Assembly: GCF_013170705.1 (NCBI RefSeq)
Contig: NZ_CP033334.1
Span: 434,001 to 498,000 of the forward strand
Direction of reading: 5' to 3'
Origin: Mesorhizobium loti
GTDB lineage: Bacteria; Pseudomonadota; Alphaproteobacteria; Rhizobiales; Rhizobiaceae
Length of the DNA: 64,000 nucleotides
In this document: positions 4,569-24,848 of the stretch, in pieces
Layout of the letters: every line of letters starts with the position of its first letter
How positions within the stretch are numbered: position 1 is the first letter of the stretch
Translations under genes and position numbers: made by a program
Notes under the pieces: model-generated
Told to the model about the DNA's origin: nothing
The model's database searches: none
Seen by the model: the letters and a program-made list of their open reading frames with translations, nothing else

Positions 4569-6233
<1,665 letters not shown>

Positions 6234-6264
6234 ATCTTTTTGAGAGATCACTGGGAGGAAACCA

Positions 6265-7377
6265 ATGGCCGATGTCAATTTGAGACAAGTGAAGAAGTCC
6301 TACGGCAATCTCAACATTCTCCACGGCATCGACCTCGATATCAAATCGGGCGAGTTCATCGTCTTCGTCGGCCCGTCGGGCTGCGGGAAGTCGACCTTGC
6401 TGCGCTCGATCGCCGGGCTCGAGGAAATCACTTCGGGTGAGCTCAAGATCGACGGCGAGGTGGTCAACGACGTGCCGCCGTCGAAGCGCGGCATCGCCAT
6501 GGTGTTCCAGTCCTATGCGCTCTATCCGCACATGACCGTCTACGACAACATGGCGTTCTCGATGAAGATCGGCAAGGAGAACAAGGCCGAGATCGACCGC
6601 CGCGTGCGCCAGGCGGCGGAAATCCTGCAGCTGACCAAATATCTCGACCGGCTGCCCAAGGCGATGTCGGGTGGCCAGCGCCAGCGCGTCGCCATCGGCC
6701 GCGCCATCGTGCGCAATCCGAAAGTGTTCCTGTTCGACGAGCCGCTGTCGAACCTTGACGCCGCACTGCGCGTCGCCACGCGCATCGAGATCGCCAAGCT
6801 CAAGGAATCGATGCCCAATACGACCATGATCTACGTCACCCACGACCAGGTCGAAGCGATGACGCTGGCCGATCGCATCGTCGTGCTCAAGGACGGGCAC
6901 ATAGAGCAGGTCGGCACGCCGATGGATCTCTACAAGAAGCCCGGCAATCTGTTCGTCGCCCAGTTCATCGGCTCGCCGGCCATGAACATCCTGCCTGCGA
7001 CGATCGACAAATCAGGCAGCCCGACCGTCGTCAGCCATGTCGGCGGGCGCAAGGCTACGGTGCCGATCACGACGCCGGCCTCGGCGAAGGGTGCGGCTGT
7101 AAGCTTCGGCGTGCGGCCGGAGGACCTGATCATCGCGACCGGCGCGGACTATCTGTTCGAAGGAACGGTCGACTACGTCGAGCAGCTCGGCGAGGTTCAG
7201 TTGGTCTATGTCGATATCGGCCGCGCCGACCTGCCACTGGTGACCAAGCTGCCGGGCAATGTCGAGGTCAAGCGCGGCTCGACGCTGCGGCTGACCGCCA
7301 ATGCCGAGGACTTGCATATCTTCGACACTGATGGGCGATCCTTCGCGCTGCATGAAGCGGAAGCAAAGGCGGCTTAG
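6265..7377 (+). CDS. aglK: Alpha-glucoside ABC transporter ATP-binding protein
   Basis: A 370-residue CUT1-type ATPase. Walker A GPSGCGKST at residues 36-44, Q-loop Gln82, signature SGGQRQ at 135-140 and Walker B FLFDEP at 155-160 are all intact, followed by the switch histidine in 'YVTHDQ'. Residues about 240-370 form the MalK-like regulatory (TOBE/MOP-type) C-terminal domain. It energises AglFG. It is the last gene of the operon, with a bidirectional terminator 20 bp downstream. The start follows GGGAGG. Confidence 0.94.
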   Translation: MADVNLRQVKKSYGNLNILHGIDLDIKSGEFIVFVGPSGCGKSTLLRSIAGLEEITSGELKIDGEVVNDVPPSKRGIAMVFQSYALYPHMTVYDNMAFSMKIGKENKAEIDRRVRQAAEILQLTKYLDRLPKAMSGGQRQRVAIGRAIVRNPKVFLFDEPLSNLDAALRVATRIEIAKLKESMPNTTMIYVTHDQVEAMTLADRIVVLKDGHIEQVGTPMDLYKKPGNLFVAQFIGSPAMNILPATIDKSGSPTVVSHVGGRKATVPITTPASAKGAAVSFGVRPEDLIIATGADYLFEGTVDYVEQLGEVQLVYVDIGRADLPLVTKLPGNVEVKRGSTLRLTANAEDLHIFDTDGRSFALHEAEAKAA

Positions 7378-7397
7378 AAGCCCGTCTCGACAGAAAA

Positions 7398-7424
7398 AAA
7401 GCGGCGGGCAAGGCCCGCCGCTTT
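7398..7424. terminator. Bidirectional rho-independent terminator between aglK and the convergent small gene
   Basis: AAAGCGGCGGGC (7398-7409) pairs perfectly with GCCCGCCGCTTT (7413-7424) across a 3-nt loop. On the + strand it is followed by a T-rich stretch, and on the - strand by TTTTTTT. It can end both aglK and the leftward small-protein array. Confidence 0.85.
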
Positions 7425-7447
7425 CTTTATAGGATCGACTTTGGCTG

Positions 7448-7684
7448 TTAGTGGCCGAAGAGGTTCCGGTCGGCGCCCTGGGGCGCGGACTTCTGCACGT
7501 CGCCCGACGAATTGAGCAGCTTGTAGACGGGCGAATCGCCGTTGCGGATCGAACCCGTGCGCGAGTTGTCGACCGAAGTCGCGGCAGGCTGGTTGGCGCC
7601 ATTGGAGCCGTAGTTGTCGCTGCCGGCGAAAGCGCTGCCGGAGAGAGCCAGAACGGCGGCGGCGGCAATGATGATCTTGTTCAT
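7448..7684 (-). CDS. Small exported protein, DUF680-like, copy 1 of 3
   Basis: A 78-residue protein starting at MNKIIIAAAAVLALSGS after an AGGAGA site. It has a Sec signal peptide ending near AFA, then the conserved 'AGSDNYGSNGANQPAATS' block, a divergent middle, and the terminal motif 'GADRNLFGH'. It contains no cysteine. It is the last of three tandem paralogues on this strand and carries a longer middle ('NGDSPVYKLLNSSGD') than the others. It resembles the small Mesorhizobium family DUF680 as I remember it. Function unknown; a periplasmic or secreted location is inferred from the signal peptide. Confidence 0.75.
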   Translation of the reverse strand: MNKIIIAAAAVLALSGSAFAGSDNYGSNGANQPAATSVDNSRTGSIRNGDSPVYKLLNSSGDVQKSAPQGADRNLFGH

Positions 7685-7713
7685 TTCAAGTCTCCTGAAT
7701 TTCAAGTTTCAGC

Positions 7714-7741
7714 AGGGCGGCAGGCAAACCCGCCGCCCTGG
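7714..7741 (-). terminator. Hairpin between copies 2 and 1 of the small exported genes
   Basis: CAGGGCGGC at 7714-7722 pairs with GCCGCCCTG at 7733-7741. There is no T-run. It lies between the stop of the upstream copy and the ribosome-binding site of the next, so it may attenuate transcription or stabilise the message rather than terminate it. A weaker GC-rich inverted repeat occupies the equivalent place between copies 3 and 2 (about 7986-8016). Confidence 0.5.
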
Positions 7742-7752
7742 AGAATCGGCTG

Positions 7753-7956
7753 TTAGTGGCCGAAGAGATTGCGGTCGGCACCCTGGACAGACGTCTGAGC
7801 AGCCGGTTCCGACTTCCTGATCGACGCGGTGTAAGAGGTGTCGGCCGAAGTGGCAGCGGGCTGGTTGGCGCCGTTGGAGCCGTAGTTGTCGCTGCCGGCG
7901 AAAGCGCTGCCGGAGATAGCCAGAACGGCGGCGGCAGCAAGGATCATCTTCTTCAT
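7753..7956 (-). CDS. Small exported protein, DUF680-like, copy 2 of 3
   Basis: A 67-residue protein beginning MKKMILAAAAVLAISGS. The signal peptide is followed by 'GSDNYGSNGANQPAATS', nearly identical to copy 1 in this block, and the C-terminus 'GADRNLFGH'. Sequence identity continues upstream of the start codon (the AGGAGACTTGAA leader is the same), so the duplication unit includes the ribosome-binding site. The middle 'SYTASIRKSEPAAQ' matches copy 3 better than copy 1. Function unknown. Confidence 0.75.
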   Translation of the reverse strand: MKKMILAAAAVLAISGSAFAGSDNYGSNGANQPAATSADTSYTASIRKSEPAAQTSVQGADRNLFGH

Positions 7957-8027
7957 TTCAAGTCTCCTGAATTCTTCGAGTTCCGCCAAGGCGGCGAGCC
8001 AGTGCCACCGCCTGCGGGAATCGACTG

Positions 8028-8228
8028 TTAGTTGTTGCCGAAGAGGTTGCGATCGGCACCCGTGACAGGCGCCTGGGCAGCCGGTTCCGACTTCTTGGTC
8101 GAAGCGGTGTACGAACCGTCGACGGCAGCAGTGGCTGCAGGCGCATTCGAACCATAGTGATCGCTACCAGCGAAGGCGCTGCCGGAAATGGCCAGAAGGG
8201 CGGCGGCAGTGAGAACAATCTTTTTCAT
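8028..8228 (-). CDS. Small exported protein, DUF680-like, copy 3 of 3 (promoter-proximal)
   Basis: A 66-residue protein with signal peptide 'MKKIVLTAAALLAISGSAFA' and mature part 'GSDHYGSNAPAATAA...' ending 'GADRNLFGNN'. It has diverged most from the other copies at the N-terminal mature block and in its leader (GGAGTACC rather than AGGAGA). It is first in the transcription direction, with the A/T-rich region 8380-8580 upstream as the probable promoter area. No cysteines or known catalytic motif. Function unknown. Confidence 0.75.
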   Translation of the reverse strand: MKKIVLTAAALLAISGSAFAGSDHYGSNAPAATAAVDGSYTASTKKSEPAAQAPVTGADRNLFGNN

Positions 8229-8737
8229 TTTTGGTACTCCAGTATTTTTACGTCCGTCTAGCGGCGTGTCTTGGGATTAAAATCGCGTCGTTCGGACAGC
8301 CCCGATGTGGGAAAGCCTGATGGCCGTTTCCAATCACGAAGTTGTTCCGTGTGGACCAAGAGTCCACCACTTGAAATTGTACCAAAGCCTTCCGGATCAA
8401 AGATTTTTCTTTTTGATATCAATCGATTAGATAAAATCACCACCGCGATCACCTGATGTATCGGAGGCTCAGCGTTCACACCGTGCTGTACGCACCGTCA
8501 ACAGAAACGAACCGTTCGGTTCGATTTTAGAATTTGCTAATAGTCACTTTTCGAAACCATTAACCTTTTCTGCTTCGATTCCGGGCGATTTTCGATAGCC
8601 GGCACCATCGTCACCGAGACGCGTTTCGTGCCCGCTGTTTCCGATCCGATCGCTGCGCAGGCGTGTCGCGCCACATGGATGCAATGTCGCTTTCATGCCG
8701 ATGTCGCATTCGCTGTCGTGATTAGATCATGGCCATC
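8229..8737. other. Gene-free region upstream of the small-gene array and the riboswitch
   Basis: About 510 bp without a convincing coding sequence. A patch at roughly 8380-8580 is much richer in A/T than its surroundings and probably holds the leftward promoter of the small exported genes and the rightward promoter of the riboswitch transcript. Short open frames here lack ribosome-binding sites and alphaproteobacterial codon bias. Confidence 0.5.
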
Positions 8738-8912
8738 TCAGGTGCCGCTTCGTGACGACGGGGCGGAGAATTGGGAAGCCGGTCAAAGTCCGGCGCTGCC
8801 CCCGCAACGGTGGTGGAGTTCAAGTCGCAACGGGAGACCACTGGGCGAAAGCCTGGGAAGGTGTCGCGACCGTCCGAAGGGACACTCCAGAGCCCGGAAA
8901 CCAGCCCGAGAT
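8738..8912 (+). promoter_or_regulatory. Cobalamin (AdoCbl) riboswitch-like aptamer upstream of the Rieske oxygenase gene
   Basis: The segment carries the conserved cobalamin-aptamer elements in order: GGTGCC near 8741, GAATTGGGAAGCCGGT, then AAAGTCCGG, the B12-box-like GCTGCCCCCGCAACGGT around 8795-8811, a variable stem region, and the closing AGCCCGGAAACCAGCC at about 8891-8906. One position of the usual GGTGAAA block is changed (GGTCAAA). The orientation is the same as gbcAB, whose start is 128 bp further on. Cobalamin riboswitches usually repress B12 synthesis, transport or B12-independent isoenzyme genes when the cofactor is abundant; here the target is a Rieske demethylase operon. Confidence 0.85.
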
Positions 8913-8947
8913 TTCTAAACTCGACTGATCGCGGTGGGCGGTCAAGA

Positions 8948-9007
8948 GGTGGATGGTGCATGACCGGCGCTTCGCCGGGACTGCATCCGATCCTTCCTCC
9001 ATCACCA
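8948..9007 (+). promoter_or_regulatory. Expression-platform hairpins between riboswitch and gbcA
   Basis: CCGGCG (8964-8969) and CGCCGG (8973-8978) form a tight stem flanked by TGCA/TGCA and GGA/TCC pairs, and GGTGG before it can pair with the CCATCACC run near 9000. No strong T-run follows, so control could be translational, or through mutually exclusive pairing with the aptamer closing stem. This is structural inference by eye. Confidence 0.45.
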
Positions 9008-9039
9008 CCATAGTCAGTCCTTAAACACGAGGACAGGAC

Positions 9040-10287
9040 ATGGATGCGCGTAACGATATGCTGAGGCTCTTGAACAGCCGCAGAGAGGGTTTCTCGCTGG
9101 AGCAGCCCTTCTACACCGACCCGGACTATTTCAAGCTCGACATGGAGCTGATCTGGTACCGCGACTGGCTTTTCATCGGCCATGATTGCGAATTGCCCAA
9201 GCCCGGCAGCTTCATCACCGTGCAGATCGGCGACTACCCGGTCGTGCTGGTGCGCGATCAGCAGGGCAAGATCAATGCCTTCCACAATTCCTGCCGCCAT
9301 CGCGGCAGCAGGGTCTGCAACACGGACAAGGGCACGGCCGCCAAGCTGGTCTGTCCCTATCACCAGTGGACCTATGAGCTCGACGGTCGCCTGCTGTTTG
9401 CCCGCCAGATGGCCGACGGCTTCGACAAGAGCCAGTTCGGGCTGAAGCCGGTCGCCTGCGAAAGCGTCGCCGGTTACATCTTCATCTGCCTGGCGAAGGA
9501 GCCAGCCGACTTCGCGCCGATGCGGGCGATGATCGAACCCTATCTCAAGCCGCACCGGCTCAGCGAGGCAAAGATCGCCTTCGAGAGCACCATCGTCGAA
9601 AAGGGCAATTGGAAGCTCGTCTGGGAAAACAACCGCGAGTGCTATCACTGCGCGGGCAATCACCCGGAGCTGTGCAAAACCTTCCCGGAGGCACCGACCG
9701 TGACCGGCGTGCAAGGCGCCGACAGCGATCCGGAGATGCTGGCGCACTGGGCCAAATGCGAAGCGGCCGGCCTGCCGAGCAAGTTCCGCATCGACCCGGC
9801 GGGGCAATACCGCGCCACGCGGGCGCCGCTGCTGCGCGATGCGGTCAGCTACACGATGAACGGCAAGCGGGCGGTGAAGAAGAACCTCTCCGACAGCGTC
9901 TCGGCCGACCGTATCGGCACGTTGATGCACTATCACTATCCGACGACATGGAACCATATCCTGATCGACCATGCCGTCACCTTCCGCGTGCTGCCGATCA
10001 GTGCGACCGAAACCGCCGTGACGACCAAATGGCTGGTCCACAAGGACGCGGTCGAGGGCGTCGATTACGATCTTGCCGAACTCACCCATGTGTGGACCGA
10101 GACCAACGACCAGGACCGCCGCATCGTCGAGGAAAACGCCCTTGGCATCCTGTCGCCGGCCTATGAGCCCGGTCCCTATTCCGAGCTGCATGAGGGTGGC
10201 GTGATCCAGTTCGTCGACTGGTACGCCCGCTTCATCGGCCCGCGCCTCGCCGAAGGCGGCCGGCCGGCGCTGCGCAGCGTCGCCTGA
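9040..10287 (+). CDS. gbcA: Rieske non-heme iron oxygenase, glycine betaine demethylase-like alpha subunit
   Basis: A 415-residue ring-hydroxylating-type oxygenase. Rieske [2Fe-2S] ligands are Cys85, His87, Cys105 and His108. The mononuclear iron site is 'ENNRECYHCAGNH' with His203 and His208. The overall pattern matches GbcA, which oxidatively demethylates glycine betaine to dimethylglycine plus formaldehyde; stachydrine or carnitine-type demethylases are related alternatives. Electrons would come from the reductase encoded 11 nt downstream. The start follows GAGGACAGG. A cobalamin riboswitch-like leader precedes it, which is unusual for this family. Confidence 0.8.
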   Translation: MDARNDMLRLLNSRREGFSLEQPFYTDPDYFKLDMELIWYRDWLFIGHDCELPKPGSFITVQIGDYPVVLVRDQQGKINAFHNSCRHRGSRVCNTDKGTAAKLVCPYHQWTYELDGRLLFARQMADGFDKSQFGLKPVACESVAGYIFICLAKEPADFAPMRAMIEPYLKPHRLSEAKIAFESTIVEKGNWKLVWENNRECYHCAGNHPELCKTFPEAPTVTGVQGADSDPEMLAHWAKCEAAGLPSKFRIDPAGQYRATRAPLLRDAVSYTMNGKRAVKKNLSDSVSADRIGTLMHYHYPTTWNHILIDHAVTFRVLPISATETAVTTKWLVHKDAVEGVDYDLAELTHVWTETNDQDRRIVEENALGILSPAYEPGPYSELHEGGVIQFVDWYARFIGPRLAEGGRPALRSVA

Positions 10288-10298
10288 GAGGTTGAGGG

Positions 10299-11408
10299 AT
10301 GAATGCGATGACCGACCTTGGCCTCTATCGCCATCTCGATCAGATGGCGCCCTGGAACGACAGGCTGCAGGTGCTGGAAGTGATCGGCGTCAGCGACGAG
10401 GCGCCTGACGTCAAGACCTTCACGTTCCGATCGGACAACCAGACCTGGTTCCGCTACAAGCCGGGCCAGTTCGTGACGCTGGAGTTGCCTGCGCCGGACG
10501 GGCCGCTGATGCGCACCTATACGCTGTCCTCCTCACCGTCGCGGCCGTTCTCGATCTCGGTCACGGTCAAGGCGCAGGCCGGCAGCATCGGCACGCGATG
10601 GATGTTCGATCACCTGACACCCGGTTCGCACGTCAAGGCTTATGGGCCGAGCGGGGACTTTTCGCTGCACAGCCATCCGGCGGCCAAATACCTGTTCATC
10701 TCGGCCGGTTCCGGCGTGACGCCGATGATGTCGATGCTGCGCTGGCTGAACGACTGCGCGCCATGGACCGATGTCGGCTTCGTCAATTGCGCGCGTCGCG
10801 CCGAAGAGATCATTTTCCGCAAGGAGCTCGAGCTGCTCGGCAGTCATATGCCGGGCTTGTCGCTGGGCTTCATGATCGAGGAGCGGTCAAGCCGCGAGGG
10901 CTGGTATGGCCATATGGGCCGCATAGACGCCATCCGGCTGCCATTGCTGGCGCCCGATTTCCGTGAACGCGAAATCTTCTGCTGTGGTCCGGACCCTTTC
11001 ATGCGCGCCGTGCGCGGCATGCTGGAAGCCGCCGGCTTCGACATGACGAAATACCATCAGGAGAGCTTTGCCGCACCCGCGGTGGAGGAAATCCCGGCGC
11101 CGTTCGCAACGCCGTCGCAGGATGGCGTGGCCGTTCCCGTCGAGGCCGCAACGCCGATCCGCTTCGCGTTTTCGGACGTCGACGCCGAATGCGTCGCCGG
11201 CCAGACCGTGCTGCAGACGGCGCGTGCCTCTGGCGTGCGGATACCCGCGGCCTGCGAATTCGGCCTGTGCGGAACCTGCAAGGTCAAGAAAGTCTCCGGT
11301 GCCGTCGAGATGAGCCACAATGGCGGCATCCTCGATCACGAGATCGACGACGGCTTCATCCTCGCCTGCTGCTCGAAGCCGCTATCGGCTCTCGAAATCG
11401 AGGCGTGA
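10299..11408 (+). CDS. gbcB: Ferredoxin-NAD(P)H reductase component of the Rieske system, GbcB-like
   Basis: A 369-residue flavoprotein reductase. Residues 72-78 (RTYTLSS) form the FAD-binding signature, 'GSGVTPMMSML' the pyridine-nucleotide site, and the C-terminal 75 residues a plant-type [2Fe-2S] ferredoxin domain with Cys319, Cys324, Cys327 and a cysteine at 357 or 358. It passes electrons from NAD(P)H to the GbcA-like oxygenase. It starts 11 nt after gbcA behind GAGGG. The domain order (FAD, NAD, Fe-S) is that of GbcB-type reductases. Confidence 0.82.
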   Translation: MNAMTDLGLYRHLDQMAPWNDRLQVLEVIGVSDEAPDVKTFTFRSDNQTWFRYKPGQFVTLELPAPDGPLMRTYTLSSSPSRPFSISVTVKAQAGSIGTRWMFDHLTPGSHVKAYGPSGDFSLHSHPAAKYLFISAGSGVTPMMSMLRWLNDCAPWTDVGFVNCARRAEEIIFRKELELLGSHMPGLSLGFMIEERSSREGWYGHMGRIDAIRLPLLAPDFREREIFCCGPDPFMRAVRGMLEAAGFDMTKYHQESFAAPAVEEIPAPFATPSQDGVAVPVEAATPIRFAFSDVDAECVAGQTVLQTARASGVRIPAACEFGLCGTCKVKKVSGAVEMSHNGGILDHEIDDGFILACCSKPLSALEIEA

Positions 11409-11551
11409 TCGCCTTGCGCTCCAACTGATCGCCGGAAATGTCGGCGCCCTGCCGGCGCCGGTTGCCTTGCCAAGAAAGAACCGAGCGTTTACAGGCGTTG
11501 TCAGTGGAAGCGATCCCGCTGGCGGGCGGGAATTGTGAAGCGGGGGCAACA

Positions 11552-11983
11552 ATGACGCATGATTGCGGCACCTATGCGGTTGCGAGCAGGGACATCGTCT
11601 TCGAATCCTTCGATGGCGAGGCCGTCGTGCTCAACCTTGCGAATGGCAAGTATTTTGGCTTCTCCGATTCCGGTAGCAGGGTTTGGCAGGCGCTCTCGTC
11701 CGGGGTCAACACCGAAGCCCTGATCGGGCTGACCGTCGGTGGCTCGACACTGGGCGCGGCGGAACTCGAACACTTCATCTCGCAATTGCTCGAAATGGGG
11801 TTGCTGGTGCGTTCAGATCAGGTTGCGCAAGCGCTGCCGGGCGAACTATCCGCCGATCTTGCCGCCACGAACGAACCGCTCAATGTGAGCATTCACGACG
11901 ACCTTGCCGACCTGATCATCGTGGATCCCATCCACGAAGTCGAGGAACCCCTCGGCTGGCCGGCGGTCAAGCAGGCATCCTGA
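11552..11983 (+). CDS. PqqD-like (RRE-fold) protein with C-terminal tail
   Basis: A 143-residue protein. Residues about 5-88 match the PqqD pattern: 'DGEAVVLNLANGKYFGFSD', then 'GSRVWQAL', and a helical end 'ISQLLEMGLLV'. PqqD-like domains (RiPP recognition elements) bind leader peptides for modifying enzymes. Residues about 90-143 form an extra tail containing 'LIIVDPIHEVEEPLGWP', beyond what a PqqD domain needs. The start at 11552 was chosen because the domain begins there; in-frame sequence upstream to 11438 is low quality. It heads a cluster with an HprK-related kinase, two GT2 enzymes and a nucleotidyltransferase; I recall related 'HPr-rel-A system' PqqD proteins. Substrate unknown. Confidence 0.75.
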   Translation: MTHDCGTYAVASRDIVFESFDGEAVVLNLANGKYFGFSDSGSRVWQALSSGVNTEALIGLTVGGSTLGAAELEHFISQLLEMGLLVRSDQVAQALPGELSADLAATNEPLNVSIHDDLADLIIVDPIHEVEEPLGWPAVKQAS

Positions 11984-12015
11984 CGAGCCGGCTGCGTCCG
12001 AGATAGAGGCGCTGG

Positions 12016-13065
12016 ATGCCGCGCGTCACGCTCGAAACCTTGCCGGATTACGCACGGTATCTCATCACCGCCGCGGAAGAAGCCTTTGCACATTATCCGG
12101 GCCCGCTGACGGTCCGCCTGCCCCAACTGGAGCTGACCGCGCATGTCGGTCCCGGTGTGCTCGCGGATGCGCTGGGCCACGCCTTTGTCCAGGCCCATGA
12201 TGGCCTGACCGCACAGTCGGCGTGCCGCATCTTCATCGCCCATCCCGGCATCGGCGGCATCCCTGAGCCGGCAAGGTGGGGCGACGCGCATTTCACCGAA
12301 TACGGCTTTGCCGAACGGCTCGCCGGGGAGGGGTTGCGTGGCCACTATTTTCACGATCTGGATTTCTGGCAGGTCTACGATCCTGAGCGCCGCATTGGCG
12401 TACAGCTGATGGCGTCGGCCGATGCCTTCCCGCCCTGGGAGCCGACAGCGCCGCTGCGGGCCTTCCTGCATTGGGAATATGCGGCGCGCGGCATGCGGCT
12501 GACCCATGCCGGCACGCTCGGTGCCAATGGCAAGGGCGTGCTGCTTGCCGGTGCGGGGGGCGCCGGCAAATCCGGTACCGTCGCCGCCGGTCTGCTCAAC
12601 GGGCTCGACAGCGTCGGCGATGACTATGTGCTGATCGATCTCGCCGGTGGCGTAACCGCGCGGCCTCTGTTTTCGACGCTGAAGCAGGATGCGCGCGGTT
12701 TCGCGCGGCTGGGCCTGAAGCAGCGGCTGGGAGTCGAGAGCCCCTTGAACTGGCAGGGCAAGCACACTTTTCACATTGTCGACATAGCGCCCCGGCCGGT
12801 CCCCCCGGCGCTGGACATCGTTGCGCTGGTGGTGCCACATATCGGCGGTGGCGAGGCGAGTTCGATCGTGCCGGTGTCGCGGCGGGACGCCATGATAGCG
12901 CTGGCACCGTCGGGCATCATGCAAATGCCGGGAGAACGCGAAAGCGGCTTCCGTTTCTTCGGCGATCTCACCCGCCTGCTGCCAAGCTACCGTCTGTCCT
13001 TGGGAACGCATCCCGGGGAGATCGCAGGCACCATTGCGGATTTTCTGACGCGAGTTGCTTCGTGA
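12016..13065 (+). CDS. HprK-related serine kinase-like protein
   Basis: A 349-residue protein. The C-terminal half resembles HPr kinase: Walker A 'GAGGAGKS' at 179-186 and 'SVGDDYVLID' at 199-208. The N-terminal about 150 residues ('PDYARYLITAAEEAFAHYPG...') are not those of bona fide HprK. The window has a separate short HprK at 24402, so this one probably acts on another substrate, possibly one presented by the PqqD-like protein encoded immediately upstream. Related kinases phosphorylate some lasso peptides. It overlaps the next gene by 4 nt (GTGA). Cytoplasmic, no signal peptide. Substrate is inference. Confidence 0.72.
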   Translation: MPRVTLETLPDYARYLITAAEEAFAHYPGPLTVRLPQLELTAHVGPGVLADALGHAFVQAHDGLTAQSACRIFIAHPGIGGIPEPARWGDAHFTEYGFAERLAGEGLRGHYFHDLDFWQVYDPERRIGVQLMASADAFPPWEPTAPLRAFLHWEYAARGMRLTHAGTLGANGKGVLLAGAGGAGKSGTVAAGLLNGLDSVGDDYVLIDLAGGVTARPLFSTLKQDARGFARLGLKQRLGVESPLNWQGKHTFHIVDIAPRPVPPALDIVALVVPHIGGGEASSIVPVSRRDAMIALAPSGIMQMPGERESGFRFFGDLTRLLPSYRLSLGTHPGEIAGTIADFLTRVAS

Positions 13066-13814
13066 AGTTGAGCGTGATCATGCCTGTCTACAACCGCGAG
13101 CGCTATGTCGTTTCGGCATTGCGCTCGCTGGTGCGACAGCGCGACGCCGCCGATCTCGACATCATCGTCATCGATGACGGCTCGACCGACGGCTCGGCGG
13201 AGGCCGTGCGCTCGATGATGGGGGAAAACCCCTGCATCCGCCTGTTTCGGCAGGAGAACATGGGCGTGACCAAGACCCGCAACGCCGGCCTCAAGCTGCT
13301 CAAACCGGAAACGGAGCTCGTGTCGTTCCTCGATTCGGACGATGTCTCGCCGGTCGGGCGATTCAAGGCCGATATTGCGTTCTTTCAGGCCGACCCCGGT
13401 CTTGAGCTCACCTATTCGCTCATGATGCTGGTCGACGGCATCGACGACGACAGGCTGGAACCCGAGCCCGGCAGCCATTTCATGACGGTGCGGGGAATTC
13501 ATCTGTCATCGGGCATTTTCTCGCGCAGGCTCGTCGATCGGATGGGTGGCTTCGATGAGGCCTTCCAGCAGGCGGAGGACACCGACTATCTGCTGCGCAC
13601 CTTTGAAAGTGGACCCAGATTCGTCACGCCGGATACCGTGGCGCTTTATTACAGACGTCACCCCGGCAACATGACGAAGCAGGCCGACACATCCCTTCGG
13701 GAGTTCATGCGAGCCATCCACAAATCGATGCGACGGCGAAAGGCCGACCCCTCCTTGCGCGGCGTCGAAGGCATCTTCGATGTCAAAGAACTCGCCAATT
13801 GGCGGTTCATGTAG
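13062..13814 (+). CDS. Glycosyltransferase family 2
   Basis: A 250-residue GT-A-fold transferase starting at GTG overlapping the kinase stop. 'LSVIMPVYNRERYV', 'IDDGSTDGS' and the DxD-type 'FLDSDD' are characteristic of GT2. It has no membrane segment, so it would act in the cytoplasm on a nucleotide-sugar donor. It is translationally coupled to the HprK-related gene and followed by a second GT2 gene two bases later. Acceptor unknown. Confidence 0.85.
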   Translation: MKLSVIMPVYNRERYVVSALRSLVRQRDAADLDIIVIDDGSTDGSAEAVRSMMGENPCIRLFRQENMGVTKTRNAGLKLLKPETELVSFLDSDDVSPVGRFKADIAFFQADPGLELTYSLMMLVDGIDDDRLEPEPGSHFMTVRGIHLSSGIFSRRLVDRMGGFDEAFQQAEDTDYLLRTFESGPRFVTPDTVALYYRRHPGNMTKQADTSLREFMRAIHKSMRRRKADPSLRGVEGIFDVKELANWRFM

Positions 13815-13815
13815 C

Positions 13816-14493
13816 ATGCGGAACTACGGCGTCGTCATACCGGCCTTCAACGCAAGCGGCACGATTGCCGAGACCCTGCTCTCGGTCGCGGCGCAGACGG
13901 TGCGGCCTGAACTGGTGGTGATCGTCGACGATGGTTCGACCGACGATCTCGCTTCGGCGATCAGCGGAACAGAGTTGCCGATCCACCTGTTGCGCCAGGC
14001 AAATTCAGGGCCCGGCAGCGCCACGACCAGGGGCATCGCGGCGCTGTCGACGCCGTTGATCGCGACGCTTGACGCGGACGACCTCTGGCTGCCGAACAAG
14101 ATGGAGAGGCAGATCGCGCATCTGGAGAGATTTCCCACGACATCGGGGGTTTTCTGTCACTGGCGGAATTTCCGCAACGACCGGCCCGACGCGCCCGAGG
14201 CCGAGGCGGTGCCCGGCTGGTCGCGCACCACCATGATGATCCGCCGAGAGGTCGCCGAGACGGTTGGGCCAATCGTCGATCCGCCGGGCGGCCGGGGCGA
14301 AATGATCGACTGGATCGCCCGGGTACGCGAAGCGGGCCTTGCCCTCGACATGCTGGACGAAGTGCTGGCGCGGCGCCGCATCCGGCCTGGCAGCCTGTCT
14401 TACGGGCGCGATCCGGCACGCGACCGCGGCTATCTCCAGGTCGCGCGGCTCGCCATGCTGCGGCGGGCGCGGGACAAGGCCGGCTCGGGCTGA
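13816..14493 (+). CDS. Glycosyltransferase family 2
   Basis: A 225-residue GT2 enzyme beginning MRNYGVVIPAFNASG, with 'VDDGSTDD' and the metal-binding 'LDADDLWLPNK'. It begins two bases after the preceding GT2 gene, and its stop overlaps the next start (TGATG). The two transferases are different enough that they probably add different sugars or act on different acceptors. Soluble, no membrane segment. Acceptor unknown. Confidence 0.85.
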   Translation: MRNYGVVIPAFNASGTIAETLLSVAAQTVRPELVVIVDDGSTDDLASAISGTELPIHLLRQANSGPGSATTRGIAALSTPLIATLDADDLWLPNKMERQIAHLERFPTTSGVFCHWRNFRNDRPDAPEAEAVPGWSRTTMMIRREVAETVGPIVDPPGGRGEMIDWIARVREAGLALDMLDEVLARRRIRPGSLSYGRDPARDRGYLQVARLAMLRRARDKAGSG

Positions 14494-15962
14494 TGGCTCA
14501 TATCCGCCGTATCGAGCGACGCTTCCCGGACTATGGCTGGTCATGGCCGACGGGTGGGCTCGACCAATTGCTCAAGGCAGCGCTCCTTGCCGACGAGGAC
14601 GCCGCTGCCGCCTGCGCCGCACGCTGGCTGGACGAGAACGATATCGATCTCGTCTCGTTCCGCGAGCACCGGCTGCTGGCCGCGATCTCCGACAGGTTCG
14701 GCAGGAAGCTCGCCGGCCATTCCGCTTATCCGCGCCTCGTCGGCCTGCAGAAGATGCTGTGGACCAAATCGCGCATGGCCATGCGCGAGGCCGAGCCGGC
14801 GCTGAAGGCGATGGCGGATGCGGGATGCCAGGTGATGCTGATCAAGGGCGCCAGCCGCATTGCCCTGAACGCATCGGCACAGCGCGGCAGGGTGGCGCAC
14901 GACATCGACATATTGGTGCGGCCGCGAGACATTCAGACGGCCTTCGACGTGCTGCGCGACGGCGACTGGCAGATCGCCACCGGCGTCAGCCCGCAATATC
15001 TGCGGACAAGACTGGCGTCGCTGCGCTCGATGAATTTCTTCAAGGGCAATCTTGGCGACATCGACCTGCACCAGCTCGCCTATGACGGCTCGCAGCGGAG
15101 CGACGAAGACGACGTGGCCATCTGGCGGCGGGCCGATGGCGCCGAATTCAGCGACGTCGACGTGCTGGTGCCGTCGCCGGCCGACCGCATCGCGCTTGCC
15201 ATCGCGCATGGCGGCCTCGACGCCCACACCCACAGCGACTGGCTGGTCGATTGCGCCGTGGCCATTCGCGGCGGCGACGTCGACTGGGACGTGTTCCTCG
15301 ATGTTGTCGCAAGGCGCGGCCTTGCCGTTGCCGCGGCGGTGGCGCTCTCCTACCTGACGCTCGAAACAGGCGTGACGACGCCGGACCGGGTGCTGGCGCG
15401 TGTGCTTGACATGGCCGACCGCTCCGGCCTCTCGCGCTGGTCGGCCGTGCTGCAGGCCAAGCCGCGGACCGATTTCGGCAGGCTGGCATGGCTGTCGCGC
15501 GGCCTTGCCAAGCAGTTGCGGCTGAGGCGCAAGAGCGGCCGGCTGCGCCAGGAGCCGCCAGCCAAGGCGTGGCGCGGCAGGCCAGCTCGCAACGAGCCGC
15601 CGGAAACGACGACGCCGTCGGTCTTCTCACAGGCCATACCTTGCCCGCCAACGGTAAGCGAGATGATGCTGGACATCACGGTCAGGATCAGTGTTCCACC
15701 GGTCCGGCGCCGCATCGAGATGGAGATCAATGCCGATAACCACCATGTCGCGCGCCTGCGCGCCATGGCCATCAGCCGATCGGGCGGGGAGCGGGTGCTG
15801 CATTTTCGCGGCAAGGTGACGCTTGATGGGCAACGGCATGCCTTGACGCTGGAGGCACGACCCTCCCGGCAATTCCGGCAATGGGACGATGCGGTGGCGG
15901 TCGCGGCCTATGGCGCGCTGCCCTTCCACCTGATCTCGGCGACGTTCTCGCCTATTGGCTGA
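14493..15962 (+). CDS. Nucleotidyltransferase of the NTP_transf_5 type with C-terminal extension
   Basis: A 489-residue protein. Residues about 20-300 fit the uncharacterised nucleotidyltransferase family: 'LIKGAS' at 116-121 and the metal-binding 'HDIDILV' at 136-142 (Asp137, Asp139). The protein continues past an Arg/Pro-rich linker (about 345-385) into a beta-rich segment to residue 489 that I do not recognise. Proteins of this family commonly accompany PqqD-like and HprK-related genes. It could transfer a nucleotide to the cluster's substrate. It is coupled to the preceding GT2 gene by a 1-nt overlap. Confidence 0.72.
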   Translation: MAHIRRIERRFPDYGWSWPTGGLDQLLKAALLADEDAAAACAARWLDENDIDLVSFREHRLLAAISDRFGRKLAGHSAYPRLVGLQKMLWTKSRMAMREAEPALKAMADAGCQVMLIKGASRIALNASAQRGRVAHDIDILVRPRDIQTAFDVLRDGDWQIATGVSPQYLRTRLASLRSMNFFKGNLGDIDLHQLAYDGSQRSDEDDVAIWRRADGAEFSDVDVLVPSPADRIALAIAHGGLDAHTHSDWLVDCAVAIRGGDVDWDVFLDVVARRGLAVAAAVALSYLTLETGVTTPDRVLARVLDMADRSGLSRWSAVLQAKPRTDFGRLAWLSRGLAKQLRLRRKSGRLRQEPPAKAWRGRPARNEPPETTTPSVFSQAIPCPPTVSEMMLDITVRISVPPVRRRIEMEINADNHHVARLRAMAISRSGGERVLHFRGKVTLDGQRHALTLEARPSRQFRQWDDAVAVAAYGALPFHLISATFSPIG

Positions 15963-16181
15963 AATGAAAGCACTCGCCAAGCATTGCTCGGCCTGTTGCA
16001 AGAGTCCTGGACGGACAATCCAGATCTCGACGCGGTGCCAACGAACATCGCAGCCCGGAACGGCGCGATTAACTGCACTTTAGGCAATCCCGGCTAGCTT
16101 GCGGCGTCAGACAGGTGCATCCGTGCACCCGCCCGTGATTTCGTCGTACTGCATAAAAATGATCTTTGTTGGAGCGGTGCG

Positions 16182-17774
16182 ATGAGTATGGGAAGTGTCA
16201 GAAACATCAGCACCGCCACCGGCTTTGCCTCTTCGATTGGAAGCTTGTCGCCGGTCTGGCTTGTCGCGGCCGTGGTGGTGTTTTCTTTTTTCATGCCCTG
16301 GACGGCGGGCGACAATACCGACGTCAGCTGGCTCGTCGTCATCTGCGAAAAAGTCCTTGATGGGCAAAAGCTCTATGTCGACATTCTGGAGACCAATCCG
16401 CCCTTCTCCGTCGCCCTGTATATCGGCCCGGTATGGCTGTCCCACAGGCTTGGCATCTCGGCCGAATCGGCGGTCGAGTGCTTCATCTATCTGGTCTTCT
16501 TCGTTTCAATGGCGCTGTCGGCCGTGGTCATCGAGCGAAGCCGTATCTTCGCCGATCTGAAGACGCAGTGGATCTATCCCGCGCTGGCGGTTCTGCTTCT
16601 CATCATGCCTGGGAATGTTTTCGGCCAGCGCGAACATGTCGGTACGATGTTGTTCATGCCGATGCTGTTGCTGATGATGTGGCGGATTGAACGCCGCCCT
16701 GACGCGCCGGTTCCTCTTGGCCTTGCCGTGGCGGTCGGCCTGGCTGGAAGCGTGCTGCTCCTGGTCAAACCACATTGGGCAACCGGCATCGTCCTGCCTT
16801 ACCTCTTCATCGCCTGGCGCAAACGCTCGCTGATGGCGTGCCTGACTGCTGAAAATGTCGTCATCTTCACGGTCTGCGCCGCCTATCTCGTCAGTGTGTA
16901 TCTGTGGTTTCCCGATTTTCTCGGCGCCTTCCTGCAATTGCTGATGCGCTACTATGTCAGCCTGCGGGCCAACATAAACATGTTGGCCGCGTTGCCGACC
17001 TTTATCGTCTTTGTCGTTTTCACGGTTTTCCAGATGCGCAAATCCGTCTGGCGAGACGACGTCGCACTGGCGATGGCGAGTGCAGCCGGTTTCTTTATCT
17101 CGATGCTTTACCTTGGGAAATACTGGCCCAACCACCAGTATCCCTACCAGACCACGATGGTGTTCGCGATGCTGCTGGCGGTGGCATCCCGGTGGCGAGT
17201 GGCGACTGGCCTCGCAAACGCGGAAGCCGCCTCCGAGGTCGCCAGCGTCAAGCTCCATGCCGCGGCCGCGCTGGCCGTGGTCGCCGCGCTTTCGGTGACG
17301 CACCACCAGTTCTACCAACTGCCCGAGAAAAGCCTGGTCGATGCCATCAAGAGCCGTTATGCCTCGCCATCGATCGTTCAGGTCAGTTCCGACCTTTCCG
17401 TCGGCAATCCGCTGACAAGAATGACCAATGGCCGCTGGCTGTCGGCCTATGCTCATGATTGGGTCGGCACCTACGCGCTCTGGGGCCTGATGCGAGGGAC
17501 ATATCAAGGCGAAGACGAACGCATCGCGCGGCGGGACCTTGACGATTACACCCGCTACCTGAATTCCCTGATCCGCGACAACAAGCCCGATATCATCCTG
17601 ATGGATCGGATGGACAAGAAAAAGTCGGCATGGTCGCTCACAGGGGACTTTCCGCCAATCTGGATTGTGTGGATGCGCCAGAACGCGGATTTCCAAACCC
17701 TGATGGGCGACTACGAGGAAATCGCGAGCGGGGATTATATCGAAGTCTATGCACGGCGCCCGGACGCCCATTAG
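16182..17774 (+). CDS. Polytopic membrane protein, GT-C glycosyltransferase-like
   Basis: A 530-residue protein with about ten hydrophobic segments from residue 25 to 380 and a hydrophilic C-terminal domain (about 395-530). The first loop contains 'ICEKVLDGQKLYVDILETNP', the position where GT-C enzymes carry acidic catalytic residues and a 'G...Y.D..d..PP' signature. It probably uses a lipid-linked sugar at the periplasmic face. It lies 219 bp after the nucleotidyltransferase gene, same strand, so it may be a separate transcript of the same pathway. M3 is a possible alternative start. Confidence 0.6.
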   Translation: MSMGSVRNISTATGFASSIGSLSPVWLVAAVVVFSFFMPWTAGDNTDVSWLVVICEKVLDGQKLYVDILETNPPFSVALYIGPVWLSHRLGISAESAVECFIYLVFFVSMALSAVVIERSRIFADLKTQWIYPALAVLLLIMPGNVFGQREHVGTMLFMPMLLLMMWRIERRPDAPVPLGLAVAVGLAGSVLLLVKPHWATGIVLPYLFIAWRKRSLMACLTAENVVIFTVCAAYLVSVYLWFPDFLGAFLQLLMRYYVSLRANINMLAALPTFIVFVVFTVFQMRKSVWRDDVALAMASAAGFFISMLYLGKYWPNHQYPYQTTMVFAMLLAVASRWRVATGLANAEAASEVASVKLHAAAALAVVAALSVTHHQFYQLPEKSLVDAIKSRYASPSIVQVSSDLSVGNPLTRMTNGRWLSAYAHDWVGTYALWGLMRGTYQGEDERIARRDLDDYTRYLNSLIRDNKPDIILMDRMDKKKSAWSLTGDFPPIWIVWMRQNADFQTLMGDYEEIASGDYIEVYARRPDAH

Positions 17775-17897
17775 AGCAGTTCACCGTTTTACGGAAACGG
17801 CGATCTCCTCTAACGCTTTGTTTTGACGCCATTCCCAAGGGAAAGCGCCACGCGCTTTCCCCGGGAAAACCGTTTTACACCTTCCCTGTAATTGCTC
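17773..17897. repeat. Interspersed palindromic repeat, family A (copy 1, long form)
   Basis: Begins AGAGCAGTTCACCGTTTTAC and ends with GTAATTGCTC. Five copies of this family occur in the window, sharing a core ACGCAATTCCGGACGGAAAA and a closing GGAATTGC arm. This copy lies in the convergent gap between the GT-C-like gene and alkB and has an extra internal GC-rich hairpin (GAAAGCGC/GCGCTTTC). Confidence 0.8.
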
Positions 17898-17906
17898 ATG
17901 GCTCAC

Positions 17907-18524
17907 TCACTCGGCCTTCGTCACCCGCCGCAGCGTCAGATTGATCCTGCCGCCGTTCTTCAGCAACGCCGAGGTCGAGGGATAGATGCGGTCGACGCCG
18001 TGGAAGCAGAGGCGCCCCTCGCCGCCGAGTACGACGACGTCACCGCTTTTCAGCCTGAACGACTTGGTCGCGCCCTCGCGCGTCGTCTGACCGACCCTGA
18101 ACAGGCAATCATCGCCCAGTGAGACGGAGACGACGGGTGCCGAGAAATCGGCCTCGTCGCGGTCCTGGTGCAGGCCCATCTTCGCGTCCGCCATGTAGAA
18201 ATTGATCAGGCAGGCCTCCGGCGGGCCAGGATAGCCCGACACCTGCCGCCAAAGGTCGAGCAGGCCCTCCGGGATCGGCGGCCATGGTTCCCCGGTCAAC
18301 GGATGCGTCGGCTGGTAGCGATAGCCCCGCTCCTTGTCGGTGACCCAGCCGAGCGTGCCGCAATTGGTCATGCGCACGCTCATCTCCTTGCCGGTGCGCG
18401 GCATGGCCGGCACGTACAGCGGGGCCTGCTGGACGATGTTTCTCACCGCCTCGACAAGCGCCTCCTGAACAGTGCGCGGCAGATAGGCCGGCATGTGGCG
18501 GACTCCCTTGGGCAGAACAAGCAT
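17907..18524 (-). CDS. alkB: AlkB-family alkylated-DNA repair dioxygenase
   Basis: A 205-residue Fe(II)/2-oxoglutarate dioxygenase. Iron ligands are His119 and Asp121 in 'LHQDRDE' and His175 in 'CFHGVDR'; the 2-oxoglutarate-binding arginines are in 'GRINLTLR' (193, 199). 'NFYMADAKMGLH' and the preceding 'YQPTHPLTGEPWPPIP' are typical of AlkB. It oxidatively removes methyl groups from 1-methyladenine and 3-methylcytosine. An in-frame GTG 12 nt upstream is an alternative start. It appears monocistronic, with no ada gene nearby. Confidence 0.92.
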   Translation of the reverse strand: MLVLPKGVRHMPAYLPRTVQEALVEAVRNIVQQAPLYVPAMPRTGKEMSVRMTNCGTLGWVTDKERGYRYQPTHPLTGEPWPPIPEGLLDLWRQVSGYPGPPEACLINFYMADAKMGLHQDRDEADFSAPVVSVSLGDDCLFRVGQTTREGATKSFRLKSGDVVVLGGEGRLCFHGVDRIYPSTSALLKNGGRINLTLRRVTKAE

Positions 18525-24379: not shown

Positions 24380-24401
24380 TCCGTTGCAAAAGACGTGATC
24401 C

Positions 24402-24848
24402 GTGCGGCCTGAAAACATTCACGCGACGGCGGTGCTGATCGGCGAACGTGGCATTCTGGTCAGCGGAGCATCCGGCTCGGGCAAGACGACGCTGGCGCTG
24501 GCGCTCATCGACCATTGCCATCAGCGCGGATTGTTCTCACGGCTGGTCGGCGACGACCAGCTTTTCATCGAGGCGCGTGCGGGGCGGCTGGTATGCCGCG
24601 CACCCGCTGCCATCGCCGGCCTCGCCGAAGTCCCGGGACTTGGTCCTCGGCCGCTGCCATTCGAACCCGCCTGCGTCGTCGACCTGCATCTACGCCTGCT
24701 GCCGGCCGGCGAAATCGCGCGCTTCCAGGAGGACGCCAGCGACGAGATCGCCGGCTGCGTGGTGCCGCGGATCGATCTGGCCGAACGCAACGTCCAGGCT
24801 GCCCTGCCCGCCGTGATGGCGCGGCTGTCCATCATGCCTTTTCTATGA
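24402..24848 (+). CDS. hprK: HPr kinase/phosphorylase, short alphaproteobacterial form
   Basis: A 148-residue protein with a GTG start. It consists only of the catalytic domain: Walker A 'GASGSGKT' at 22-29, and 'LVGDDQLFIEA' with the aspartates of the HprK active site. The about 130-residue N-terminal domain of Firmicute HprK is absent, as is normal in Rhizobiales. It phosphorylates the regulatory serine of HPr, encoded two genes downstream. The gene order chvG-hprK-EIIA-HPr is typical and links PTS regulation to the ChvG/ChvI system. Confidence 0.9.
   Translation: MRPENIHATAVLIGERGILVSGASGSGKTTLALALIDHCHQRGLFSRLVGDDQLFIEARAGRLVCRAPAAIAGLAEVPGLGPRPLPFEPACVVDLHLRLLPAGEIARFQEDASDEIAGCVVPRIDLAERNVQAALPAVMARLSIMPFL

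Follow-up and report, generated by a model that had tools for sequence, protein, structure and literature searches.

A window of 64,000 nucleotides, i.e., the whole stretch of DNA that was analysed (positions 434001-498000 of the 6.87-Mb single-contig genome of Mesorhizobium loti), contains a cassette of five genes encoding a PqqD-like protein, an HprK-like P-loop kinase, two glycosyltransferases of family GT2 (GT2a and GT2b) and a nucleotidyltransferase of the NTP_transf_5 family. These five genes form one co-conserved unit. The PqqD-like protein associates a recognition element for ribosomally synthesized and post-translationally modified peptides (RiPP recognition element, RRE) with a strongly conserved C-terminal tail. 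The cassette might accordingly be viewed as a self-contained system of RRE-guided phospho-/glyco-tailoring, in which an RRE with a built-in leader and core replaces the diffusible precursor, a reading favoured here tentatively and at somewhat less than even probability.

Conservation of the five-gene cassette

The near-contiguous cluster of PqqD-like, HprK-related, two GT2 and NTP_transf_5 genes described in the initial annotation is borne out by the Pfam scores, by the junctions and by the comparison of genomes. Genes failing to travel together had been named there as the outcome that would overturn the proposal; instead, the order PqqD-HprK-GT2a-GT2b-NTP5 and the strand are identical in 59 out of 59 loci, and an arrangement recurring in this way is not due to chance. 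The 59 loci, mostly from Mesorhizobium, were confirmed from 118 stretches, which two peptide patterns of the kinase retrieved from a collection holding one genome for each species. According to their titles, they include Mesorhizobium, Aminobacter, Nitratireductor, Roseovarius, Fuscovulum and Solimonas, the closest named loci being those of Mesorhizobium, with a 90% identical kinase. They overlap with the genomes designated by G handles for L052/G073, L046/G155, L066/G186, L070/G131, L075/G038 and L037/G316. Within the bacterial family, the kinase was found in 8 of 199 genomes, the source genome included, and the seven relatives share the full set of five in an identical order. The unit is nevertheless broken in G073 (L021, around 10035), where the kinase gene lacks its end and the first GT2 gene its beginning.

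The polytopic GT-C-like gene located downstream, which had been counted with the cluster, was rejected as a member of the unit owing to the occurrence of a homologue in only 3/59 loci. A PMT_2-like membrane gene near another locus, L102, is unrelated to it by BLASTP. Conserved small neighbours had also been put forward as candidate substrates, but BLAST clustering (E 1e-5) of the flanking open reading frames (ORFs) of at least 30 aa from 20 loci gave no shared small gene among the 12 largest groups, a weak test for very short peptides. In this clustering, for which some cassette genes were called on the wrong strand, the largest flank groups consist of ABC transporters (11 loci) and of a GT4-like gene (4 loci). 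As a substrate or carrier, the PqqD-like protein's own C-terminal tail is the likelier candidate.

An anti-phage defence function was also considered and discarded, the five cassette genes and the GT-C-like gene being devoid of any PADLOC match at E 0.01. With respect to mobile elements, no phage match was obtained and no relative occurred among viral contigs; a single plasmid, from Crinalium, matched with the kinase, and carries genes for PqqD, a nucleotidyltransferase, an HPr kinase, an FkbM methyltransferase and a glycosyltransferase. The Crinalium RRE protein used as a query retrieved this plasmid again, together with a weak match in Tistrella restricted to residues 3-92.

The RRE protein and its C-terminal tail

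The PqqD-like protein belongs to the lasso-B1 type, i.e., it contains a winged-helix RRE matching TbiB1. With a mean column entropy of 1.02 bits, the tail is more conserved than the RRE (1.64 bits) and the linker (2.35 bits). It ends with the pattern DPIH[DE]V..GWP, in which D125, H128 and W136 are invariant, and residue 140 consists of Lys or Arg in 23 of the 26 non-redundant orthologues.

A profile made of twelve divergent relatives retrieved 1370 proteins at E<=1e-10. The best 120 of these 1370 are all tail-bearing, and 17 out of the 18 organism-named entries among these best 120 are cyanobacterial. Their consensus reads F-E-x-P-x-L-x-K-[FY]-[TS]-D-M-x-[DE]-L-L-L-L-D-P-I-H-[DE]-V-D-x-x-G-W-P, with an FxxPxL segment preceding the end motif throughout this wide family. 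The segment has the spacing of the RRE-binding motif [Y/W]xxPx[L/V/I/F/A] of lasso and LPP leaders (PMC13381572), and also that of YETPSL in a lasso-type precursor-like ORF located elsewhere in the source genome. A protein of 283 aa, P0125, contains tandem RREs, the first followed by a leader-like FDPPML without DPIH..GWP, and the second by the whole tail.

Searches of 398 and 385 genomes with a tail profile yielded no convincing stand-alone tail. Weak candidates were discarded, L088 corresponding to DNA polymerase I and L094-L096 containing no ORF with DP[IVL]H, and three short database entries with the tail (48, 48 and 73 aa) may represent fragments of the RRE gene or wrongly called starts. 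The searches made in an open-access library brought up no account of the tail, an absence which is no proof.

Predicted docking of the tail

Two AlphaFold models, that of the window protein and that of the cyanobacterial protein P0127, agree on a strand in the tail, followed by a short helix in the window protein. In P0127, the linker 94-107 has a predicted local distance difference test (pLDDT) value below 50, while the block 111-120, which contains FEKPML, reaches a mean of 88, and L120-F123 form a strand. Most rows of the VIA-align structure comparison span the RRE only, and support no claim on the fold of the end motif. One row, the NisB-NisA leader complex, comprises 105 aligned residues up to residue 127 of the model and residue 1020 of the chain, with a root-mean-square deviation of 5.4; given the length of NisB, residue 1020 presumably lies within the NisA leader. 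In the PbaB1-leader structure, the residues just past the motif Leu extend the sheet of the RRE (PMC13381572), and the predicted tail strand fits this register. The tail segment is predicted to dock in cis at the leader site of the RRE, through a putative contact.

Separation from tail-less, lasso-type RRE systems

A homologue of the Asn-synthase-type lasso cyclase occurs within 6 kb in 34 of 53 tail-less loci and in none of 37 tail-bearing loci (14 plus L058-L080), and no macrolactam cyclase of this type was found at positions 5501-18000 of the window. At the same distance, GT2 genes accompany 14/14 tail-bearing versus 12/53 tail-less loci, the kinase 12/14 versus 43/53, and NTP_transf_5 10/14 versus 23/53. 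Earlier counts, made on stretches of unequal length, agree with these, except for a tail-less NTP_transf_5 count of 24/53. Since the kinase and NTP_transf_5 occur in both kinds of loci, it is the GT2 genes and the lack of a cyclase that mark the tail-bearing ones. Among the 14 tail-bearing loci, the window, L013, L021 and L108 are closely related, and L013, L021 and L109 were found via the kinase; the nine loci found by the tail profile alone (L099-L107) possess a kinase in 7, NTP_transf_5 in 5 and GT2 in 9 cases. A fairer test consists of the scan of 398 genomes of the phylum for RRE places, 59 of which were detected at E<=1e-4: 6 reach the tail and the rest end at or before position 103 of the 141 positions of the profile.

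The RREs and the kinases co-segregate. In the kinase tree, tail-bearing (19 rows) and tail-less loci (32 rows) split on one branch with a Shimodaira-Hasegawa-like approximate likelihood-ratio test (SH-aLRT) value of 99. This tree, obtained by a quick method without bootstrap, covers 52 of 63 rows, the failure of the P-loop pattern having removed L100 (tail-bearing), nine tail-less rows and, by subtraction, the L020 kinase; an earlier tree of 17/63 rows needed two changes. The likely housekeeping HPr kinase of the window falls on the tail-bearing side with a long branch, so that the split is unrooted. Similarly, a tree of RRE domains deprived of their tails, based on few columns, separates 27 hand-chosen tail-bearing rows (22 loci and 5 database proteins) from 53 tail-less rows on one branch (SH-aLRT 95). 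Kinase scores below 1e-30 occur in 12/14 tail-bearing versus 0/53 tail-less loci, a partly circular contrast since tail-bearing loci supplied most of the material for the HprK, NTP5 and GT2 profiles.

Small ORFs with the pattern [YW]xxPx[L] number 0 at window positions 5501-18000 and occur in 7/37 tail-bearing and 18/53 tail-less loci; because the pattern matches merely 18 of these 53, this search for small precursors is insensitive. The source genome also possesses a lasso-type cluster (L167, 263293-275532; also L019) with a precursor-like ORF (5590-5820) that contains YETPSL and a core ending in Ser, together with tail-less RRE, Asn-synthase-like, HprK-like and NTP_transf_5 matches, so that one cell provides both the tail-bearing system and a lasso-type counterpart to compare it with. 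In another region of this genome (L020, 229000-248000), a third NTP_transf_5 gene (9076-10101) adjoins a divergent HprK-like ORF (10119-11108) without Pfam match, and a nearby ORF (5516-5818) looks HPr-like by eye.

The kinase, GT2 and NTP_transf_5 enzymes

In the search of protein families that the initial annotation had recommended, the PqqD-like protein lies marginally above the cut-off of PF05402 (23.6 versus 23.4 bits), whereas the kinase remains below those of Hpr_kinase_C (PF07475; 14.1 versus 33.3 bits) and of the HPr(Ser) kinase TIGR00679 (18.0 versus 240), and far below those of the NCBIfam families HprK_rel_A and HprK_rel_B (TIGR04352/TIGR04355; 24.4 and 20.2 versus 200 bits), its likeness to the latter being a weak P-loop similarity. 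The P-loop region resembles that of the HPr kinase 1jb1 (E 9e-4), and H164, G184-K185-S186 of the P-loop and D202-D203 are invariant among 27 non-redundant sequences from 60 orthologues. The kinase keeps its nucleotide-binding residues despite its sub-cut-off family scores.

The assignments of both GT2 enzymes (Glycos_transf_2, 81.1 and 83.0 bits) and of NTP_transf_5 (72.8 bits for a cut-off of 31.2) are clear. GT2b possesses three invariant residues, D86, D88 and D89, numbered from residue 1 at 13816, and GT2a is present as two copies in 31/59 relatives. In the NTP_transf_5 protein, D137 and D139 are invariant (19 non-redundant of 57 sequences); D191, invariant in 7 aligned sequences, is missing from the invariant list of the larger alignment. 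Compared by sequence with solved structures, the protein gave a chance-level match alone (E 0.28).

The window contains another HPr-kinase-like gene, at 24399-24845 (+), about 11 kb from the cassette kinase, whose product matches Hpr_kinase_C above the cut-off (40.7 bits) and is probably the housekeeping HPr kinase. It adjoins apparent response regulator and sensor kinase genes.

Comparison with known systems

The statement that related sets are described only as computational families is partly outdated, since the trio of RRE, HprK-like kinase and NTP transferase has experimental relatives in paeninodin and pseudomycoidin (PMC9266682) and in the linear polyphosphorylated peptides (LPP; Popov et al. 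2026, PMC13381572). In the former, a B1 RRE is found with the HprK-like kinase PadeK/PsmK and the nucleotidyltransferase homologue PsmN, which is needed for the addition of hexoses on phospho-Ser, a host glycosyltransferase not being excluded by the review (PMC9266682). The cassette shares these three components with the paeninodin-type lasso systems, but differs by the lack of a cyclase homologue within 6 kb and by kinases located on a separate branch. LPP clusters contain a discrete RRE, an HprK-like kinase and an NTP transferase, and need no macrolactam cyclase; their leader motif [Y/W]xxPx[V/L] is bound by the RRE, whose sheet is thereby extended. Described from Bacillota, they also include an SpI-like peptidase, an MsbA-like exporter and a precursor that is separate from the RRE (PMC13381572). 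The same trio occurs in the cassette, but with a leader-like peptide fused to the RRE and two kinds of GT2 gene as constant members. In both lasso and LPP systems, the discrete RRE binds the leader of a separate precursor, and the kinase phosphorylates a Ser residue of this precursor (PMC9266682, PMC13381572). The tail-bearing PqqD-like proteins also belong to the 21% of PF05402 proteins which exceed the size of a discrete RRE without any other Pfam domain (PMC12710340); the tail goes unmentioned in the text compared. From the earlier idea of a peptide modification or peptide-linked glycan, the resemblance of the five genes to a peptide phospho-/glyco-tailoring set can be retained, without the GT-C-like gene.

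Neither an SpI-like peptidase nor an MsbA-like exporter was found in the five genes and the eight flanking genes scanned, except for a MalK-type ABC ATPase (6265-7377). Similarly, no Pfam match to the leader peptidase B2 occurred in the cassette or in its flanking genes gbcA, gbcB and six others, the flanks of the relatives being judged by their 25 commonest families. RREs are known to bind a precursor that is either a molecule apart or offered to a fused enzyme. In borosins, there is a precedent for the fusion of a RiPP core with a component of the machinery that processes it, the partner being a methyltransferase in borosins versus an RRE in the tail-bearing proteins.

Possible function of the cassette

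With no separate precursor seen, although the search for small ones is insensitive, and with a leader-like segment and a constant end present on the RRE protein, a built-in precursor is the simplest account. A lasso-B1-type RRE would be fused in cis to a peptide that is normally a separate precursor, the leader-like segment (FxxPxL across the wide family, with a degenerate form in the subfamily of the window) would add a strand to the RRE by docking on it, while DPIH[DE]V..GWP at the end would hang free as a fixed core. The kinase, both GT2 enzymes and NTP_transf_5 would act on, or assemble around, the presented tail, to build a small phosphate- or sugar-containing group on the RRE protein instead of a diffusible peptide. 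We infer that the tail would be the modified site.

Several observations weigh against this built-in substrate, the acceptor residue being its weak point. HprK-like kinases with known peptide products target Ser, and the tail possesses no invariant Ser, Thr or Tyr; a phospho-Ser in the tail is not supported, the C-terminal Ser of the window protein being common to just 29/60 sequences. The [TS] found at position -9 in 119 of the best 120 proteins of the wide family, which may be a helix cap only, is replaced by Asp in 25/26 sequences of the window's subfamily. This subfamily has also lost the aromatic residue of FxxPxL, and keeps Pro in 12/26 and Val in 14/26 sequences at the P and L positions. 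The end motif has a low pLDDT in both models (about 50-60, with a drop after residue 120 in the window protein). The five genes include neither a peptidase nor an exporter, and the deletion of lppN in LPP caused no change (PMC13381572). Moreover, the gene set is incomplete in some loci: L101, a 3.7-kb contig, is without kinase, L099, L103 and L104 show no NTP_transf_5 in the stretches read, and L102 combines a tail-bearing RRE with two adjacent GT2 genes and neither kinase nor NTP_transf_5 in 18 kb, which hints at GT2 as the closest partner of the tail-bearing RRE. G745, the genome of L102, has one more tail-bearing locus, L103, in which a kinase is present.

The lack of an invariant hydroxyl acceptor would also fit with a tail that is a docking or autoinhibitory element, either plugging the RRE cleft until displaced by a substrate encoded elsewhere, or recruiting the kinase or glycosyltransferases through DPIH..GWP to another acceptor, protein or small molecule. 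A leader mimic would likewise bind in cis, an end motif engaged in a protein-protein contact could be just as invariant, and P0125 has its end motif on the second of two RREs alone. Such a role is a serious possibility, although less likely than not. Against it, the surroundings of the cassette showed no co-conserved gene for a candidate substrate, the tail-profile searches gave no convincing stand-alone tail, and the end motif would be superfluous for a mere plug. It is improbable that the enzymes belong to an ordinary capsule, exopolysaccharide or lipopolysaccharide pathway, regulated or assisted by the PqqD/HprK pair. The GT2 genes and the GT8, GT4-like or rhamnosyltransferase-like genes added in some loci would suit such a pathway, and LPP and paeninodin clusters often reside within capsule loci (PMC13381572). 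However, 109 of the 130 listed flank proteins from 18 loci outside the main Mesorhizobium group (including L080, a divergent copy in Mesorhizobium neociceri) match 127 Pfam families, the commonest being ABC_tran in 7, and the 25 commonest include no shared polysaccharide polymerase or export family. Pfam also revealed no polymerase, flippase or exporter among the five cassette genes, and the scanned neighbours in the window are betaine, amylase, transporter, AlkB-like, LysM, RF-1 and PEPCK genes.

Pyrroloquinoline quinone (PQQ) derives from PqqA and mycofactocin from MftA, and the cores of lasso peptides are not known to be near-invariant, unlike that of the tail. The near-invariance of this core from Cyanobacteria to Proteobacteria would suit the precursor of a conserved, cofactor-like small molecule, freed later by a housekeeping protease. 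GT2a resembles the mycofactocin glycosyltransferase MftF at a sub-cut-off score (68.4 versus 280 bits), but its scores with other GT2 families are equal or higher, and the five genes include neither a radical-SAM enzyme nor a peptidase; such an origin is improbable.

Returning to the built-in precursor, a broader proposal, which we consider unlikely though worth stating, is that of a widespread class of RREs, from Cyanobacteria to Proteobacteria, with a cis leader and an invariant core, whose precursor peptide would always stay with its recognition domain, and where a protein-tethered phosphorylated or glycosylated carrier or cofactor group would be made by the HprK-like kinase, NTP_transf_5 and GT2 at an unusual acceptor (His, Asp, Trp or Lys). 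More generally, a group of RREs with a leader-like peptide of their own and a nearly invariant core could explain some of the oversize, single-domain PF05402 proteins (PMC12710340). It would offer a fixed, testable substrate for two families of poorly known chemistry, the HprK-like kinases and NTP_transf_5, and would point to a role in physiology that is conserved, as opposed to antagonism.

Gene layout and neighbouring genes

The four junctions of the cassette (Table 1) consist, in order, of a 32-nt gap, a 4-nt overlap, a 1-nt gap (or a 35-nt overlap) and a 1-nt overlap; a longer in-frame start of the PqqD-like gene is available at 11438.

Table 1. Features of the cassette and of the GT-C-like gene located downstream (positions in the window).
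Feature	Position	Strand	Basis and remarks
PqqD-like protein, 143 aa	11552..11983	+	lasso-B1-type RRE domain, variable linker, conserved tail
RRE domain, residues 7-88	11570..11815	+	AlphaFold pLDDT block means 92-97 for residues 11-90; VIA-align range 6-89 to 5v1v
C-terminal tail, residues 108-140	11873..11971	+	leader-like strand 112-115, short helix 119-124, end motif
End motif DPIHEVEEPLGWP, residues 125-137	11924..11962	+	D, P, I, H, G, W, P identical in 26/26 non-redundant orthologues
HprK-like P-loop kinase, 349 aa	12016..13065	+	1jb1 match, invariant residues, tree branch
GT2 glycosyltransferase a, 250 aa	13062..13814	+	PF00535 1.1e-22
GT2 glycosyltransferase b, 225 aa	13816..14493, alternative start 13780	+	PF00535 3e-23, read from 13780
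NTP_transf_5 protein, 489 aa	14493..15962	+	PF14907 4.2e-20, residues 91-287; C-terminal region outside Pfam match
Polytopic GT-C-like gene	16182-17774		no Pfam match

Upstream of the cassette occur gbcAB-like genes, the PqqD-like gene starting 143 nt after gbcB, which is also directly upstream in 28/59 loci. A cobalamin riboswitch (8723-8923, +; 103.5 bits) is located 116 nt upstream of the glycine-betaine-monooxygenase-like gene (9040-10287), which is followed by its reductase. A B12 control of betaine demethylation would be of interest, and read-through from gbcB into the PqqD-like gene could occur. Upstream of gbcA, at 7448-7705 (-), a small secreted-looking protein with GSDNYGSNG is encoded, and three consecutive ORFs of this kind occur in the relative L021 (4533-5312, -).

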